From Deltaproteobacteria bacterium (GTDB lineage: Bacteria; Myxococcota_A; JAADFL01), in NCBI GenBank assembly GCA_013152945.1, contig JAADFL010000201.1, positions 1-42,479 on the forward strand: a DNA stretch of 42,479 nucleotides, given 5' to 3'. The position numbers and the translations under genes were made by a program. Shown here piece by piece: positions 4,687 through 14,955 of this stretch (within the stretch, counting starts at the first letter, position 1; every line of letters begins with the position of its first letter). Under the pieces are notes generated by a model. The model did no database searches. It saw nothing but the letters and a program-made list of their open reading frames with translations, and was not told the DNA's origin.

Positions 4687-6276
4687 ATGGAGAAAAAAAA
4701 CAAGGGATGTATACTTGCAATCGACCTCGGAACTTCCGGTCCAAAGGTGGTGGTGGCTGACCTTGCCGGCGGATTTTTGGCGCAGACCCTTGAGAAGACA
4801 CCGGTCAAGTTTCTGCCCGGCGGCGGCGCAGAGCAAGATCCCGAGGATTGGTGGAAGGCTATCGTAAGAGCGAGCCGCAGGGCGATTTCCGAATCCGGGC
4901 AAAAAGACAACATCCTTGCAGTGTCCTGCTCCACACAGTGGTCTGGAACAGTTCCGCTTGATCGAAATGGTAATGTATTGGCCGATGCCATAATCTGGAT
5001 GGACTCAAGGGGAGCGAAGTATGTACGCAAACTGGTGGGTGGTCCGATTTCAATCGACGGGTACAGCGTGGTCTCCCTTCCCGTCTGGATTCGCCTGACC
5101 GCAGGCATTCCGGCCAAGTCGGGAAAGGATTCCATTGCCCACATTTTGCTGATCAAGAACGAGATGCCCGAACTCTATGAGCAGACCGACATGTTCATAG
5201 AGCCCAAGGACTATATCAATTACAGGCTCACAGGCGAGAAGGCCGCATCCTTTGATTCCATTACTCTTCATTGGGTTACGGACAACCGTAATATTTCTAA
5301 TGTCAAATACAGCCCGTTGCTTCTGAAGATGGCGGGAATCGACCGGGACAAACTGCCTCCGCTTAGGGGAGTGAGTGAAATCCTGGCACCTCTTTCGAAA
5401 AAGGCTGCATCCGAACTGGGTCTCAAGCCCGGCTTGCCCGTCATAACGGGGTCGCCGGATCTGCAGGCGGCAGCCATCGGATCGGGAGCCGTCAAGGATT
5501 ATGCTTCTCACCTGTGTGTCGGAACTTCTTCGTGGCTCACCTGTCACGTACCCTTTAAGAAAACCAGCCTTCTTCACAACATGGCTACACTACCGTCAGG
5601 TATACCGGGAAGGTACTTTGTCGCCAACGAACAGGAGACGGCGGGGGCGTGCTTGCTGTTTTTCAGGGACAAGATTGTGTACTTTGACGACAGGTTTGGC
5701 GTTAAGGGAGAAAGGCCTGATTTCTTCGAGTCCTTTTTCTCGGATGCGGCATCCGTGCCTCCGGGTTCGGGCAAGGTGATTTTCGCTCCATGGTTGTACG
5801 GGGAGAGGACGCCTGTGGACGACCATTTCGTAAGAGGAGCCTTCTTCAATCTCTCGATGGACACGAATCGTTCTGACATGGCACGTGCCGTGTTGGAAGG
5901 TGTTGCGTACAACACCAGGTGGTTGTTCGAACATTTCATGAAATTCATTGGAAGAAATGTCGATACCATCAATTTCATCGGCGGGGGAGCAAGGTCGGAC
6001 CTGTGGTGCCAGATTTTCGCCGATGTCCTTGACAGGCCCATACAAAGGATGAAGGACCCCTTGCATGCCAATGCCCGCGGAGCAAGTGTTCAAGCTGCGG
6101 TAGCGCTTGGGGAAATGTCCTTCGACGAATCAGCGCGCATGGTGCCGATGGATAGAATGTTCGAACCCATGCCTGCCAACAGGCAGGTCTACGACGATCT
6201 CTTCGGCGTTTACCTGGGGTTGTACAAGGCCAACAAGGGTCTGTATGCCAGGTTGAACCGTTCCGACGGGGTTTAG
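4687..6276 (+). CDS. FGGY-family carbohydrate kinase
   Basis: A cytoplasmic kinase of about 529 residues that would transfer phosphate from ATP to a sugar or polyol. The N-terminal actin-like ATPase fold opens with ILAIDLGTSGPK. The second half has the FGGY signature regions: GSPDLQAAAIGSG (catalytic Asp in SPD), LYGERTPV, and FIGGGARSDLWCQ before the C-terminal helices. Length and layout match xylulokinase-type members, but the substrate cannot be read from sequence. The ATG at 4687 is preferred over an in-frame TTG at 4663, because the family motif begins a few residues later; an AGAGGT lies upstream with a long gap. Only 21 bases separate it from the PLP lyase gene, so the two are very likely co-transcribed. 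Confidence 0.85.
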   Translation: MEKKNKGCILAIDLGTSGPKVVVADLAGGFLAQTLEKTPVKFLPGGGAEQDPEDWWKAIVRASRRAISESGQKDNILAVSCSTQWSGTVPLDRNGNVLADAIIWMDSRGAKYVRKLVGGPISIDGYSVVSLPVWIRLTAGIPAKSGKDSIAHILLIKNEMPELYEQTDMFIEPKDYINYRLTGEKAASFDSITLHWVTDNRNISNVKYSPLLLKMAGIDRDKLPPLRGVSEILAPLSKKAASELGLKPGLPVITGSPDLQAAAIGSGAVKDYASHLCVGTSSWLTCHVPFKKTSLLHNMATLPSGIPGRYFVANEQETAGACLLFFRDKIVYFDDRFGVKGERPDFFESFFSDAASVPPGSGKVIFAPWLYGERTPVDDHFVRGAFFNLSMDTNRSDMARAVLEGVAYNTRWLFEHFMKFIGRNVDTINFIGGGARSDLWCQIFADVLDRPIQRMKDPLHANARGASVQAAVALGEMSFDESARMVPMDRMFEPMPANRQVYDDLFGVYLGLYKANKGLYARLNRSDGV

Positions 6277-6297
6277 TGAAATCAGGAGGACGGCTTA

Positions 6298-7803
6298 ATG
6301 GACTTGCTGGAAATGGTTAACAAGTACGGTGATAAGATTGATCCGAGATTGGCCGATGCCACGTTCAGGGTGCTGAAAAAGGTCCCGTACGTGAGGAGCC
6401 TGGTGGAGAAGGAGTTCGAATCCATAACCGCCGACCTCGAGAAAATGGCAAAGCCTTACAGGGGGAAAACACGGTCTTTCGAGAGGTTGCCCGAAGAGGG
6501 AGTGGACAGGAAAGAAGTGCTGCAGGAGATGACCGGGATCACCAGGGAAGAGGAAAAAAAGTGGAAGAACGGGTACGCCTCGGGTGCGGTTTATAATGGC
6601 GACAATACTCACATCGACTTTTTAAACAAGGTATATGCATTGAACTCTCAGACAAATCCCTTGCACTCGGATCTCTGGCCCAGCGCGTCCAAGTACGAAG
6701 CGGAAATAGCATCAATGACTGCTGCCATGCTGGGCCGTGATCATGCACCCGGAGTTTGCGGTACGGTCACGTCGGGCGGAACCGAGAGTATTCTGCTGGC
6801 AATGAAGACATACAGGGACAAGGCTCGTGTGGAGAGAAAAATAACCAAACCCGAGATTGTAATTCCGGTGACGGCTCACGCTGCTTTCGACAAGGCGGGC
6901 CAGTACTTTGGAATAAAGGTCGTTAAGGTTCCGGTGGATCAAAACTCAAGGGCCGATGTAAAGATGGTCAAGAAGGCCATAACCAGGCGGACCATCGCCG
7001 TAGTAGGTTCGGCCCCCTCGTTTCCTCACGGCGCAATCGACCCGATTTCAGAGATGTCCGAACTGGCGAGAAAGAGGGGTATAGGATTTCATACGGATGC
7101 CTGCCTGGGTGGTTTTGTGCTGCCATGGGCGGAGAGGCTCGGCTATCCGGTCCCTGTTTTCGACTTCAGGTTGCCCGGTGTAACCTCCATGTCTGCAGAT
7201 ACTCACAAGTACGGGTATGCTGCGAAGGGGACGTCGGTCGTTCTGTACAGGGATTCGTACCTCCGGCGATACCAGTATTTTACTACTACTGACTGGCCGG
7301 GCGGGCTTTACTTTTCACCTACTTTTGCAGGCAGCAGGCCCGGGGCATTGAGCGCTGTCTGTTGGGCCACCATGGTGAGCATGGGAGAGAAAGGTTACCT
7401 CGAGGCGACACGGAAGATAATGACCGTGGCGGACAAGATCAAGGAAGGGATAGCCTCAATACCGGAACTCCAAATAGTGGGAGAACCCCTGTGGGTTATT
7501 GCCTTCAAATCAGACTTGCTTGACATCTACCAGGTGTTGGACTTCATGTCCAAGAAAGGGTGGAGCCTGAACGGCCTGCATAGGCCGCCATGTGTCCATT
7601 TTTGTGTAACCCTAAGGCATACGGGCAAGGGTGTTGCAGAGCGTTTTCTCCTGGACCTCCGCCAGGTAGTCGAGGAAGTCAAGACAATGCCTGCCTCCAA
7701 AAGTGGACTTGCCCCGGTTTATGGAATGGCGGCAACCATGCCAATAAGGAGTTTGGTCGGCGAACTCCTTAAGAAGTATATAGATATACTCTACAGGGTT
7801 TGA
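6298..7803 (+). CDS. Sphingosine-1-phosphate-lyase-like PLP enzyme
   Basis: A 501-residue group-II PLP-dependent decarboxylase-fold enzyme closest in pattern to sphingosine-1-phosphate lyase, which cleaves phosphorylated long-chain bases into an aldehyde and phosphoethanolamine. Seen: [12 protein letters not shown] (cofactor phosphate binding), THAAFDKAG, the HTDACLGGF segment, and [19 protein letters not shown], where Lys304 should form the PLP Schiff base. No N-terminal membrane anchor is visible, unlike eukaryotic forms, so it should be soluble. AGGAGG nine bases upstream fixes the ATG start. Its neighbour is an FGGY kinase, which suggests a phosphorylate-then-cleave pair. The real substrate may be a sphingoid base or another phosphorylated amino alcohol; glutamate decarboxylase-like activity is less likely. 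Confidence 0.8.
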
Positions 7804-10943: not shown

Positions 10944-12833
10944 TTACTTGTTTTTCCCCCTTAGGACCCGTTTGTCACCGATTCTCATGGTTATACGGAT
11001 CCTGTCGAAGTATTCCAACAACGGTATTGCATGTTTTCTTGTGATCTTTGCCAGGTTTTTGAATTCCGATGGTGTAATCGACTCCTGGTTTGCAAGGTAT
11101 TCCCTGACCTCGTTGATTATTGAATCCAGTGCTTGCTTGGAAAAGGACATGTCCTGTTTGACCCTGACGAGCCGGCCATCTTCGTGCAAATTGAAGAGAG
11201 CCAGGTTCAGGTTCTTTTCATCCGCCTCGATCAGGGTCTTCAACTCCTTGTATTTTGGCGGGGCGAGCCCTGCTGATGCATATATTACGGCCAGCTTGTC
11301 CTCCAGATCTTTCGTCTTGTTGTCATGTTCTCCTGCAGGCCTGATGTTGCCGTGTACCGATATAATGTCCCCCTGGCCTAGAGCCTCTTTGACAGCGAAC
11401 TCCAGTGCTTCCATGCACTTTGAAGCACCGGTCTTCCCGGCCAGGATGGTTGTTGAAAGTTTGCCTCTTTCTTGCCAGTCTATGGCAATCTTTTTTATGT
11501 CCTCCCTGAGTGCTTCGAGCGTTTTCCTGGTAACGATTTTTCCGCCCAGGTCTATTGCGAGGCCGTTTTCATTTTCCAGCTTGGATGCAATGGCCTTGAC
11601 CTTATCCATGTTTAGGCCCAGCATTGCACGCGCTTCCGGGAATGTGAGGCATCTTTTGCCCTGTTCATCTGCGAATGCCAGCAGGGCATCCTCTTGGGAG
11701 CATTCACAGAGCCTGGCGAGGAGGGTAGCCAACCTTGCATTCCTTAGACGGGGCGGTCTAGGGTGGAGCACTGCGCCGCCTCCCATAGTATAACCAAATT
11801 TTATACTCCTCCTCGATCCACGGATTACGAAGTGTTCGCCGAATATCACTGAAACAGGTGCATTCAATTTCAATCTTGCGAGGTGCCTGGAGTTGGATGT
11901 CTTGCCGAGGATCGTGATCCTTGCATTTATTCGACCGGTGCCGAAGTGCACTGTGTATACCGATTTTCCTCCTCCGGGCAATGCCCGGTCATCCATTACC
12001 TGCAAGACAACCCCGACCTCGCGTGTTATACCGAGGACACCCTTGGCGGCAACAAGCGAGCCCCGCGGAACCATGTCACTTGTAACACCGGACAGGTTCA
12101 ATGCAGTTCTGCTGCCTGCCTCGATGCTTTCAGCATTTTGGCCGTGTACCTGGATACCCCTTACCCTGGCAATGGTCCTTGAGGGAAAGATCTCCAGACC
12201 CTGATTTACTTCGATGCGTCCACTTAGCAATGTGCCTGTGACTACGGTTCCAAATCCCCTGATATTGAAAGAACGGTCTACGTACAGCCTGGTGATGGTA
12301 GAGTATGCGTCTATGGGATCCAGGTTTTTGGAAACATCGGACACTGCCTTCGCAAGTTCGTCCAGGCCGCTTCCATTTACGGCTGATACAGGTACCACAT
12401 CGGCACCTTTGTACCCGGTTTCATCCAGGAACTCCCGTACATCTTCCCCGGCCAAGTGCAGTTCCTCTGGATCCACGAGATCAATTTTTGTAACAGCCGC
12501 TACAATCTTTTCGATACCGAGAAGCCTGCAAATCCTTAGATGCTCCCTTGTCTGAGGCATGACTCCCTCGTCGGCAGCCACTACCAGTATTACGATCCTG
12601 GCGCCGAAGACGCCGGCAACCATGTTTTTTACAAAGTCCTCGTGGCCCGGCACATCGACTACGCCTGCTGTGAGGCCGCTTGGAAGTTTCCAACTCGTAT
12701 ATCCTGACTCTATGGTTATTCCCCGTCTCTTCTCCTCGTCCAGCCTGTCGCAGTCCACGCCTGTCAGGGCCTTGACCAAGGCTGTCTTGCCGTGATCGAC
12801 ATGACCTGCAAATGCGACAACAAGTCTCTTCAA
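10944..12833 (-). CDS. selB: Selenocysteine-specific elongation factor SelB
   Basis: SelB is a GTPase that delivers Sec-tRNA to ribosomes at UGA codons marked by a SECIS hairpin. The protein of about 629 residues has GHVDHGKT (G1, residues 10-17), DVPGHE (G3) and TKID (G4). EF-Tu-like β-barrels follow, then C-terminal winged-helix repeats ending in the SelB hallmark RKHAIPLLEYFDR...GDKRVL. A TTG start at 12833 is preferred, giving MKRLVVAFAGHVDHG, because GGAG lies six bases upstream. The GTG at 12860 would add nine residues and has GGA abutting it. No selA, selC, selD or selenoprotein gene is visible here, so they should lie elsewhere. It diverges from the DUF362 gene. The leader holds a large stem-loop. 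Confidence 0.95.
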   Translation of the reverse strand: MKRLVVAFAGHVDHGKTALVKALTGVDCDRLDEEKRRGITIESGYTSWKLPSGLTAGVVDVPGHEDFVKNMVAGVFGARIVILVVAADEGVMPQTREHLRICRLLGIEKIVAAVTKIDLVDPEELHLAGEDVREFLDETGYKGADVVPVSAVNGSGLDELAKAVSDVSKNLDPIDAYSTITRLYVDRSFNIRGFGTVVTGTLLSGRIEVNQGLEIFPSRTIARVRGIQVHGQNAESIEAGSRTALNLSGVTSDMVPRGSLVAAKGVLGITREVGVVLQVMDDRALPGGGKSVYTVHFGTGRINARITILGKTSNSRHLARLKLNAPVSVIFGEHFVIRGSRRSIKFGYTMGGGAVLHPRPPRLRNARLATLLARLCECSQEDALLAFADEQGKRCLTFPEARAMLGLNMDKVKAIASKLENENGLAIDLGGKIVTRKTLEALREDIKKIAIDWQERGKLSTTILAGKTGASKCMEALEFAVKEALGQGDIISVHGNIRPAGEHDNKTKDLEDKLAVIYASAGLAPPKYKELKTLIEADEKNLNLALFNLHEDGRLVRVKQDMSFSKQALDSIINEVREYLANQESITPSEFKNLAKITRKHAIPLLEYFDRIRITMRIGDKRVLRGKNK

Positions 12834-12890
12834 TATTCGCTCCAAGGGGCGTCCGGTCACTCCAAGTGACGGCCTGCAAGCATGACCGTG

Positions 12891-13027: not shown

Positions 13028-13065
13028 AATCGTGTCGTATAAAAGGAATGGAAAGGGGATTCGCC

Positions 13066-14955
13066 TTGACAGCGCAAATCAGTAAAAAAAACCTTATCCT
13101 GGCCGGGCGCTTGTTGAAAGAGGCAGAGAATTTAAGAGGAGACTTGAACCTTGGGATCGGCGGTAAGCAGGATGCGGCCCTAAGACTGGCCGCCGGGCTT
13201 GCCGCCAACCGCATAACCAGCGGGAACATTCCTGTTGATCCGGAACTGAGGGCCGTGTGGACGGCCTCGCGTCTTTTGGCCGAGGAGCTGAATTTTTCAG
13301 CAGGCATGGAATTGAATGATACCAACTTGTTGCCCGAGGTAACAAGGTGCTGCATGCCGGACATGATTTCTTATCTCCCCGTGCCTTCCGGCCCGCTGGC
13401 TTCACTGAGGAAGGCCTTGAGGAAAAGGCCCGGCTTGGCGGCCGACTTGCTGGGCCAGGCCTCCAGGTTGAAATCGGTTGAATCCGGAAAGACAAAAGTT
13501 GTAACTGCCACGTCAAAGGGCAAGGACAAGATAGAGCTGATATCGCAAGTTCTGGAAAGGCTTCCGCTCGAATCCATGGTACAGGCTGCTTCCGATCGTT
13601 CAGGCAAGTTCAAGGAAGATTGTCTCGCTGTAATCAGGGTATACACAGGGCCTGCACAATTGCCGGTAGATGACGGCTTGTACCCGGACCCTACACTGGT
13701 GTTGAAAATAATTTCTTCCTTGCTCGAGGCTGGTATCGGCAGGGTGATTATCGGAACCGATGGCGGTGAGGCCGGGGCTGTTCCTTCCTGTAGTGAGCCG
13801 GCCAGGCTTTTTGCAAGGCTCGGATTTCTCGACGAGGGTCTTAATCCCATCGAAGATATCAATCCTGCCTCGCCTCCGCCTGCAAAGGTCCTGGTTGCAG
13901 GAGAAGAAAGAGACATTCCGATAATCGATCTCGGGTCTGACGGCGGCAGGCATACATGGTCGTCTGCGGACTTGAGGGTACTTGTGGCATCCCCCAGGGT
14001 ACATGGCGCTGATCGCTTGGCCTTGACATTGCACGGCCTGGTTGACCACAAGAGGAGCAAGGGTGATCCAAGCCTGGCAAGGGAAACCGCAGTTGAACTC
14101 GCTGCGAGTCATCCTGTCCACATGGCCGTTCTTGAAGCAACCACCGGGTCGGACGGCCCCGGAGGTGAATATTCATGTCCCAGGTCCAAGTTGCTTCGGA
14201 CAATAGTGGCGTCGTCCAATCCCCTGGCGGTCGATATTTTGTCGGCGCAGATTTTGGGAGTGAATCCCTTCAAATCCAAAATGATCGATCTTGCAGTAAA
14301 AGAACTCGGCTTGACTCCTTACTTTGTTGATGGCGAGGTCTATAGAATCGAGCAATGGAGAAACAAGCGATTGGCTCCATTGCTTACTACAAGGCATGGA
14401 ATAACCAGGAAAATATTGTTTGATGTTCCTAAAACCGGAGGGAATCCGGGTAAAAGGGCACTGGACATTGTGTTGCTTCGTCCGTTTTGGGCAGGGGGAG
14501 CGCGACCTGCAGCGATAAGTGCCAGATTGATTGAAACGAAATTGCTGAAAAAAGAGCTTGAAAAGAAAGGTCCCAGGGCAAAACTCTCCAACTCGGATCC
14601 AGCCTTTTTTCTCCTGGCACGGGAACTGCCGAGAAGGGACATTGGTTTGCTTTTATCTTTCTTAAAGAGCGAGAGCGAGACAATCGAGGCAGGTACGGGC
14701 AACCCAAGGCGGCTGGGACATATCCTGCGCCTGGGAGATGGTATGCTTCAAATGAGATCCTTTTCTGCAAGGCCGGTAATCGCAGCAACCGAGATAGTTA
14801 GAGGAGTCGCTTATGGCAGGTGGAATTTCCAGACAGTTCTCGAAGACTTGAGGGTCTGGGAAGAGATACATTCACTTTCTCTGGGCACCAGGCTGTCCAT
14901 CAACCGCTTCAATGCTCCGAGGAGGAGGGTCGTTCCGGGTTTCAGGGATAATTAA
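13066..14955 (+). CDS. Oversized DUF362-domain protein
   Basis: A protein of about 629 residues. The centre (about 160-420) matches the DUF362 pattern: PDPTLVLKIISSLLEAG, a Gly/Asp-rich 'glycan-like' stretch, ASPRVHGADRLALTLHG, then DGPGG and IVASSNPLAVDILSAQILG before a helical end. DUF362 proteins are often tied to iron-sulfur chemistry, but no Cys cluster typical of a ferredoxin is seen here. The N-terminal 150 and C-terminal 200 residues match nothing I recognise. The family is usually shorter. The TTG at 13066 follows AAAGGGG by seven bases; the ATG at 13048 (six residues longer) has AAAAGG only two bases away. No signal peptide. It is divergent from selB. Function unknown. Confidence 0.7.
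   Translation: MTAQISKKNLILAGRLLKEAENLRGDLNLGIGGKQDAALRLAAGLAANRITSGNIPVDPELRAVWTASRLLAEELNFSAGMELNDTNLLPEVTRCCMPDMISYLPVPSGPLASLRKALRKRPGLAADLLGQASRLKSVESGKTKVVTATSKGKDKIELISQVLERLPLESMVQAASDRSGKFKEDCLAVIRVYTGPAQLPVDDGLYPDPTLVLKIISSLLEAGIGRVIIGTDGGEAGAVPSCSEPARLFARLGFLDEGLNPIEDINPASPPPAKVLVAGEERDIPIIDLGSDGGRHTWSSADLRVLVASPRVHGADRLALTLHGLVDHKRSKGDPSLARETAVELAASHPVHMAVLEATTGSDGPGGEYSCPRSKLLRTIVASSNPLAVDILSAQILGVNPFKSKMIDLAVKELGLTPYFVDGEVYRIEQWRNKRLAPLLTTRHGITRKILFDVPKTGGNPGKRALDIVLLRPFWAGGARPAAISARLIETKLLKKELEKKGPRAKLSNSDPAFFLLARELPRRDIGLLLSFLKSESETIEAGTGNPRRLGHILRLGDGMLQMRSFSARPVIAATEIVRGVAYGRWNFQTVLEDLRVWEEIHSLSLGTRLSINRFNAPRRRVVPGFRDN

Follow-up and report, generated by a model that had tools for sequence, protein, structure and literature searches.

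Why should a gene of a sugar-kinase family lie directly before a gene for a lyase resembling sphingosine-1-phosphate (S1P) lyase? This question is raised by a 42,479-nucleotide stretch of a Deltaproteobacteria bacterium (contig JAADFL010000201.1, assembly GCA_013152945.1), referred to in full as the window. Here the FGGY-family kinase gene KIN and the S1P lyase homologue gene SPL lie on the + strand, KIN first, with a gap of 21 bases (6277-6297) between them. An earlier note on this DNA had described this arrangement and proposed a phosphorylate-then-cleave route whose substrate may be unrelated to sphingolipids. The arrangement was confirmed by Pfam, by matches to three S1P lyase structures and by the coordinates. 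In our view, KIN and SPL likely form a catabolic module that breaks down sphingoid (long-chain) bases in two steps. The kinase would use ATP to phosphorylate a free sphingoid base, be it sphingosine, sphinganine or a bacterial analogue of these, at its C1 hydroxyl, and the lyase, a pyridoxal phosphate (PLP) enzyme, would then cleave the 1-phosphate by a retro-aldol reaction, yielding phosphoethanolamine and a long-chain aldehyde. The FGGY kinase would thereby probably be a previously unrecognised bacterial counterpart of human sphingosine kinase.

Conservation of the pair

A scan of species-representative genomes for SPL gave 170 confirmed relatives, and the best 80 of these were kept as loci. 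They were picked for SPL similarity, regardless of KIN presence, and KIN-SPL distances across loci were taken between aligned segments. In 67 of the 80 loci, SPL has a KIN homologue on its own strand no more than 600 bases away (median 58 bases); in a further four, the distance is 794-3260 bases. The 67 loci represent nine named phyla: Chloroflexota (28/33), Myxococcota (17/18), Spirochaetota (5/5), Actinomycetota (4/4), Thermodesulfobacteriota (3/5), Bacteroidota (2/6), and Zixiibacteriota, Pseudomonadota and Bacillota (1/1 each); five of six unplaced loci complete the count. As there are only two FGGY_N matches at E ≤ 0.001 in the whole genome of the window, and yet 67/80 SPL loci are paired, the adjacency of KIN and SPL in this genome exceeds chance. 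The earlier note had held that a pair that was not conserved would speak against such a route; the pair is conserved, and it is a widespread, compact two-enzyme module, larger than that note stated. When 824 neighbouring open reading frames (ORFs), crudely called, were clustered, no third gene was constant across the loci and no other cluster occurred in more than 7 of the 80; therefore, KIN and SPL look self-sufficient.

Nine loci have no KIN in reach. Less than 1 kb of contig is present upstream of SPL in four of them (L035, L042, L058 and L064), and in the other five (L047, L048, L067, L074 and L075) no KIN adjoins SPL. An unlinked KIN (46-50% identity) is present elsewhere in four of these five genomes (G084, G097, G102 and G103, not G085). 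The gene order is mostly KIN-SPL, the reverse being found in L072, L079, 12 of 13 loci of the Symbiobacterium thermophilum type and a Bacteroidota group. An apparent SPL-KIN fusion ORF in L079 was rejected, as the two matches read in different frames.

Within the window's phylum (57 genomes; KIN at E <1e-150, SPL at ≥60%), KIN was found in five genomes and SPL in four, all four being among those five. KIN and SPL are 1.7 kb apart in G006, with an opposite-strand ORF between them. The distances of the two proteins are correlated, with a coefficient of 0.96 for 73 full-length pairs and of 0.86 for the 62 close pairs, for which the maximum over 2000 label permutations was 0.22. After removal of short or interrupted matches and duplicate loci, 142 SPL rows were placed in a FastTree, a quick, midpoint-rooted tree in which long branches meet in places. 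It contains a 29-row clade (local support 100) with no neighbouring kinase. Among the remaining 113 rows, 102 have a same-strand KIN no more than 4 kb away; the other 11 are the nine loci above plus L084 (a short locus from G006) and L174 (G145, with KIN on another contig).

The lyase and its relative in Symbiobacterium thermophilum

SPL shows full-length similarity to characterised S1P lyases, and its match to the S. thermophilum enzyme (StSPL; STH1274; PDB 3mad) has an E value of 4.9e-196. The human (4q6r) and yeast (3mc6) lyases follow with 445 bits (E 3.6e-132) and 392 bits (E 2.9e-116), respectively, while the best decarboxylase match, at 101 bits, is far below them. The PLP lysine in an HK motif, another mark of the family, is present as an invariant residue (Table 1). 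In vitro S1P cleavage by StSPL, with release of phosphoethanolamine, and the loss of this activity in its K311A mutant are described in the accessible part of PMC3148216. By analogy with StSPL, to which it is 62% identical, the window's SPL would be expected to cleave S1P as well.

The 3mad sequence was also searched against 151 genomes of one class. It matched G418, the CHARACTERISED relative, with 100% identity over 457 residues, and G418 is therefore S. thermophilum or near-identical kin. A KIN gene lies directly downstream of SPL in this genome, on the same strand and with 23 bases between the aligned segments. The KIN of G418 is 52% identical to that of the window and the two SPLs, which fall into one lyase clade, are 62% identical, but the order is lyase-kinase there and kinase-lyase in the window. 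In the 20 regions fetched in this class, KIN is adjacent in 13/13 with close SPLs and in 0/7 with divergent SPLs; G468 (fragments at contig ends) and G430 matched 3mad as well and lie outside these regions. The 2011 authors called the natural function of StSPL unknown, most likely sphingolipid catabolism, and a neighbouring kinase is not mentioned in the part of their paper available to us (PMC3148216).

The kinase

KIN belongs to the FGGY carbohydrate kinase superfamily, as it has both domains (FGGY_N, 135 bits with a cut-off of 28.8; FGGY_C, 102 bits with a cut-off of 27) and, in an AlphaFold2 model built with 38 sequences (mean predicted local distance difference test score 92), the FGGY fold. 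Its start is ATG 4687 and its stop ends at 6276, with the frame open also from TTG 4663. The top-scoring model is that of xylulokinase (TIGR01312), at 262 bits against a cut-off of 380, so that KIN does not qualify as a XylB equivalog; its scores stay under the cut-offs of all 12 NCBIfam models listed. These same 12 sugar-kinase models are matched by all 38 aligned KIN members. A diacylglycerol-kinase-type domain was not found, the Pfam scan at E ≤ 0.001 giving FGGY_N and FGGY_C only.

The folds nearest to the KIN model are those of xylulose, gluconate and glycerol kinases (17-27% identity), and the 50 matches listed by VIA-align are sugar, glycerol and related FGGY kinases. As judged from this predicted model, the structure comparison is silent on the substrate of KIN. 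XylB, gluconokinase, glycerol kinase and autoinducer-2 kinase share with KIN both domains, the fold and the position of Asp258, presumably the catalytic base. KIN differs from these enzymes in its low identity to the listed structures, in its scores below the curated cut-offs and in the residues where, in the 2itm alignment, Gln-Met-His-Gly of E. coli xylulokinase becomes Gln-Trp-Ser-Gly. We take the Met-His pair of xylulokinase to be a sugar contact. Trp85 is invariant in 62/62 close KINs and the adjoining position is Ser-like. A KIN-specific insert (approximately residues 120-145) was considered as a membrane-binding amphipathic helix and rejected, its hydrophobic moment being ordinary: in 61 close KINs, a median of 22% of the windows of the same protein score equally high.

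Table 1. Positions of KIN, SPL and sequence elements within or between them, in window coordinates
Feature	Position	Strand	Basis
KIN, FGGY-family kinase, 529 amino acids	4687..6276	+	Pfam FGGY_N and FGGY_C above cut-off; AlphaFold2 FGGY fold
Trp85-Ser86 codons of KIN	4939..4944	+	Aligned to Met-His of E. coli xylulokinase 2itm
Asp258 codon of KIN, presumed catalytic base	5458..5460	+	Invariant 38/38; aligned to Asp of XylB 2itm
AGGAGG, ribosome-binding-site-like, 5' of SPL	6284..6289	+	Sequence, within the 21-base gap
SPL, S1P lyase homologue, 501 amino acids	6298..7803	+	655 bits to 3mad, residues 45-501
Lys304 codon of SPL, PLP lysine in THKYGY	7207..7209	+	Equivalent to K311 of StSPL; invariant 20/20

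Ceramidase homologues and the source of the base

Two Bacteroidota loci (L051 and L056) provide a further link to sphingolipids. In both, a single directon consists of genes for a TonB receptor, a neutral/alkaline ceramidase homologue, a PHP-domain protein, KIN and SPL; the ceramidase homologue of L051 matches PF04734 at 3e-111 and the Pseudomonas aeruginosa ceramidase 2zws at 5e-79. G066 has a KIN-like gene (36%) that is preceded, at 3.6 kb, by a ceramidase homologue and followed by a class III aminotransferase gene. In a search set of 50 genomes (the window's genome plus 49 of the 80 locus genomes), PF04734 was matched at E <1e-50 in 15, with no match in 14 control genomes.

Co-occurrence was then counted in the class to which L051 belongs (296 genomes; KIN E ≤1e-120, SPL E ≤1e-60, ceramidase E ≤1e-30), bearing in mind that shared ancestry inflates the p-values of such counts. 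KIN was present in 6 genomes, SPL in 46 and ceramidase in 59. Ceramidase was found in 44 of the 46 genomes with SPL versus 15 of the 250 others, and KIN in five of the six genomes with the closest SPLs versus 1/290 others. All 14 genomes with a verified FGGY partner have ceramidase. In this class, a divergent FGGY kinase (31-33%) lies beside SPL in 8/8 fetched loci of the 41-44% type and in one locus of G237, versus 0/7 loci of a shorter SPL type.

The earlier note had suggested a search for serine palmitoyltransferase. None was recognised among the aminoacyl-CoA-synthase-type matches in the window's genome, which points to scavenging rather than synthesis: three such matches were read as KBL (adjoining a threonine-dehydrogenase-like gene), BioF (adjoining a BioB-like gene) and a degenerate relative. 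The sphingoid base used by the window's organism is therefore probably scavenged. A match to serine palmitoyltransferase 3a2b with at least 49% identity was found in 5/50 genomes, one being partial. When 30 loci were classified, six more were nearer to 3a2b than to KBL, BioF or the cysteate enzyme (38-40%), and two were marginal. Chloroflexota and Desulfobacterota are among the groups credited with Spt-like genes in the accessible part of PMC11334938, so that some carriers may make their own sphingolipids; neither the kinase nor the lyase is mentioned in that part. Contig C80 of the window's own genome (L119:1480-2613) encodes a 377-residue aminoacyl-CoA-synthase-like protein (PF00155, 1.8e-7) that by eye is without a PLP-lysine motif; its gene is near an elongation-factor-G-like gene, and it could be a non-catalytic subunit.

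Alternative explanations

The key step of a sphingoid-base module is the specificity of KIN, which we infer from its linkage to S1P lyase and ceramidase. The route proposed in the earlier note is well supported as such, by conservation across phyla, by the kinase beside StSPL and by the ceramidase linkage, while its kinase step stays at the level of this reasoning. The reservation that the substrate might be unrelated to sphingolipids has become the less likely reading.

Several observations weigh against the module. All FGGY models matched by KIN describe kinases of polar substrates. The ceramidase homologues of L051 (2425-4215) and L056 (3618-5360) read CADIMPN, without the Ser of the GDxSPN motif that we take to be catalytic; by motif pattern, 4 of 14 ceramidase homologues have GD(V/I)SPN, 3 have Thr for Ser, 2 have Met and 5 are unmatched. 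Ceramidase matches in the window's genome are all weak (best 2.8e-8), and serine palmitoyltransferase was not recognised there. Ceramidase is also present in 30 of the 32 genomes of L051's class that have SPL without a verified FGGY partner, and it therefore ties SPL, not KIN, to sphingolipids. G029 has KIN (49%), but its SPL is only 45% identical and lies approximately 170 kb off on the same contig. A class III aminotransferase gene and two class II aldolase-family genes separate KIN and SPL in L062 and L065, and in some Myxococcota DctP-type binding protein genes precede KIN and a DUF1295 protein gene follows SPL (each assigned by Pfam in one locus, by clustering in the rest). The same class III aminotransferase is found beside a KIN in L013 and L215, class II aldolase neighbours occur in L032 and L049 as well as in L062 and L065, and an unlinked KIN lies beside a major facilitator superfamily (MFS) transporter gene in L218 or a glutamine-synthetase-family gene in L177 (4513-7458). 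These aldolase, aminotransferase, DctP and transporter neighbours could reflect either a hydrophilic substrate or extra steps on a sphingoid phosphate.

The main alternative is a small, polar amino-polyol as the substrate of the pair, such as a 2-amino-2-deoxy-alditol, with the kinase forming the 1-phosphate and SPL releasing phosphoethanolamine and a short sugar aldehyde. The polar FGGY models, the class II aldolases, the DctP-type proteins and the MFS transporter would all suit such a substrate. We nevertheless consider it unlikely: StSPL, for which S1P cleavage is shown, has a homologous kinase gene immediately downstream; ceramidase is linked to the pair and co-occurs with SPL; the loci share no recurrent transporter or isomerase; and where xylulokinase has Met-His, KIN has an invariant Trp and a Ser-like position.

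The same neighbours can be fitted into a more elaborate form of the sphingoid-base module, which we regard as rather doubtful. Here, the FGGY kinase would represent a new lipid (sphingoid-base) kinase family, and some hosts would have two exits from the long-chain-base phosphate. One exit would be SPL, giving phosphoethanolamine and the aldehyde. In the other, the linked class III aminotransferase would turn the amine into a ketone, which the class II aldolases would cleave to dihydroxyacetone phosphate and the same aldehyde; a 1-phospho-2-keto-3-hydroxy intermediate would fit the chemistry of fuculose-phosphate-type aldolase cleavage.

It is quite improbable that the kinase has some other substrate, such as glycerol or a pentulose, and is merely co-regulated with SPL, which would obtain its sphingoid phosphate externally or through a different kinase. 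The top-scoring xylulokinase model and the existence, in the 29-row clade, of SPL-type enzymes without an FGGY neighbour are in line with such an arrangement, but KIN falls under every NCBIfam cut-off listed, that of xylulokinase included, and the two genes are linked in both orders across phyla, co-occur when unlinked and show correlated distances. A meaningless, accidental adjacency in this genome has a negligible probability given the conservation of the pair and the two FGGY_N matches, even though its neighbours in the window (PEGA, CarboxypepD_reg, DUF4097 and SelB) formed no recurrent cluster across related loci.

The preferred module, kinase then lyase on a sphingoid base, would follow the step order of eukaryotic sphingosine kinase and S1P lyase (Dpl1/SGPL1), and its lyase is a homologue of the human and yeast enzymes. 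It differs in the fold of its kinase, that of FGGY sugar kinases, whereas sphingosine kinases are described in the accessible part of PMC6148460 as members of the diacylglycerol-kinase family. The S1P lyases of Burkholderia pseudomallei and Legionella, also bacterial members of the family, are discussed for host infection, with no kinase mentioned in the part of PMC5234717 available. Another FGGY kinase, PA3024, lies in an operon proposed for glycerolipid metabolism (PMC8151288, accessible part). Among the matches listed in our literature search, which left subscription literature mostly outside, titles and abstract openings contain no description of an FGGY kinase-S1P lyase pairing. Solved structures and shown activity are already available for bacterial S1P lyases, with the natural role of StSPL called unknown (accessible part of PMC3148216). 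If the module is real, it would name a missing bacterial kinase and place lipid phosphorylation in a sugar-kinase fold, correct the xylulokinase-like annotation of KIN-type genes and provide a genomic marker for sphingolipid-consuming bacteria.

Other observations

Elsewhere in the window, SelB, the selenocysteine elongation factor (TIGR00475, 347 bits, cut-off 242), is encoded at 10944-12860 (−), and a 635-residue ORF at 13048-14955 (+) has no Pfam or NCBIfam match at E ≤ 0.001.

A gene for a DUF1295 membrane protein directly follows SPL in L019, L026, L040, L043, L049 and L055 (assigned by Pfam in L049, by cluster in four others and by eye in L055). The protein is presumably a relative of steroid/enoyl reductases and might reduce the enal made from S1P. 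In L074 (1855-5603), a glutamine-synthetase-family gene lies beside SPL, with a peptidase C26 gene; this gene and the one beside the KIN of L177 perhaps gamma-glutamylate an amine. Two opposite-strand genes, by eye a toxin-antitoxin-like pair, lie between KIN and SPL in L023 (2566-4202). In L140 (7012-14075), a KIN-like gene (35-36%) is found among phosphoenolpyruvate phosphomutase/nucleotidyltransferase and thiamine-pyrophosphate-enzyme genes, as in aminoethylphosphonate synthesis. Finally, kinase-free short SPL-like genes in L168 (1664-7716) and L170 (1443-7395) have, approximately 3 kb away, a gene resembling by eye the cysteate fatty-acyltransferase type, a neighbourhood that hints at sulfonolipid metabolism.

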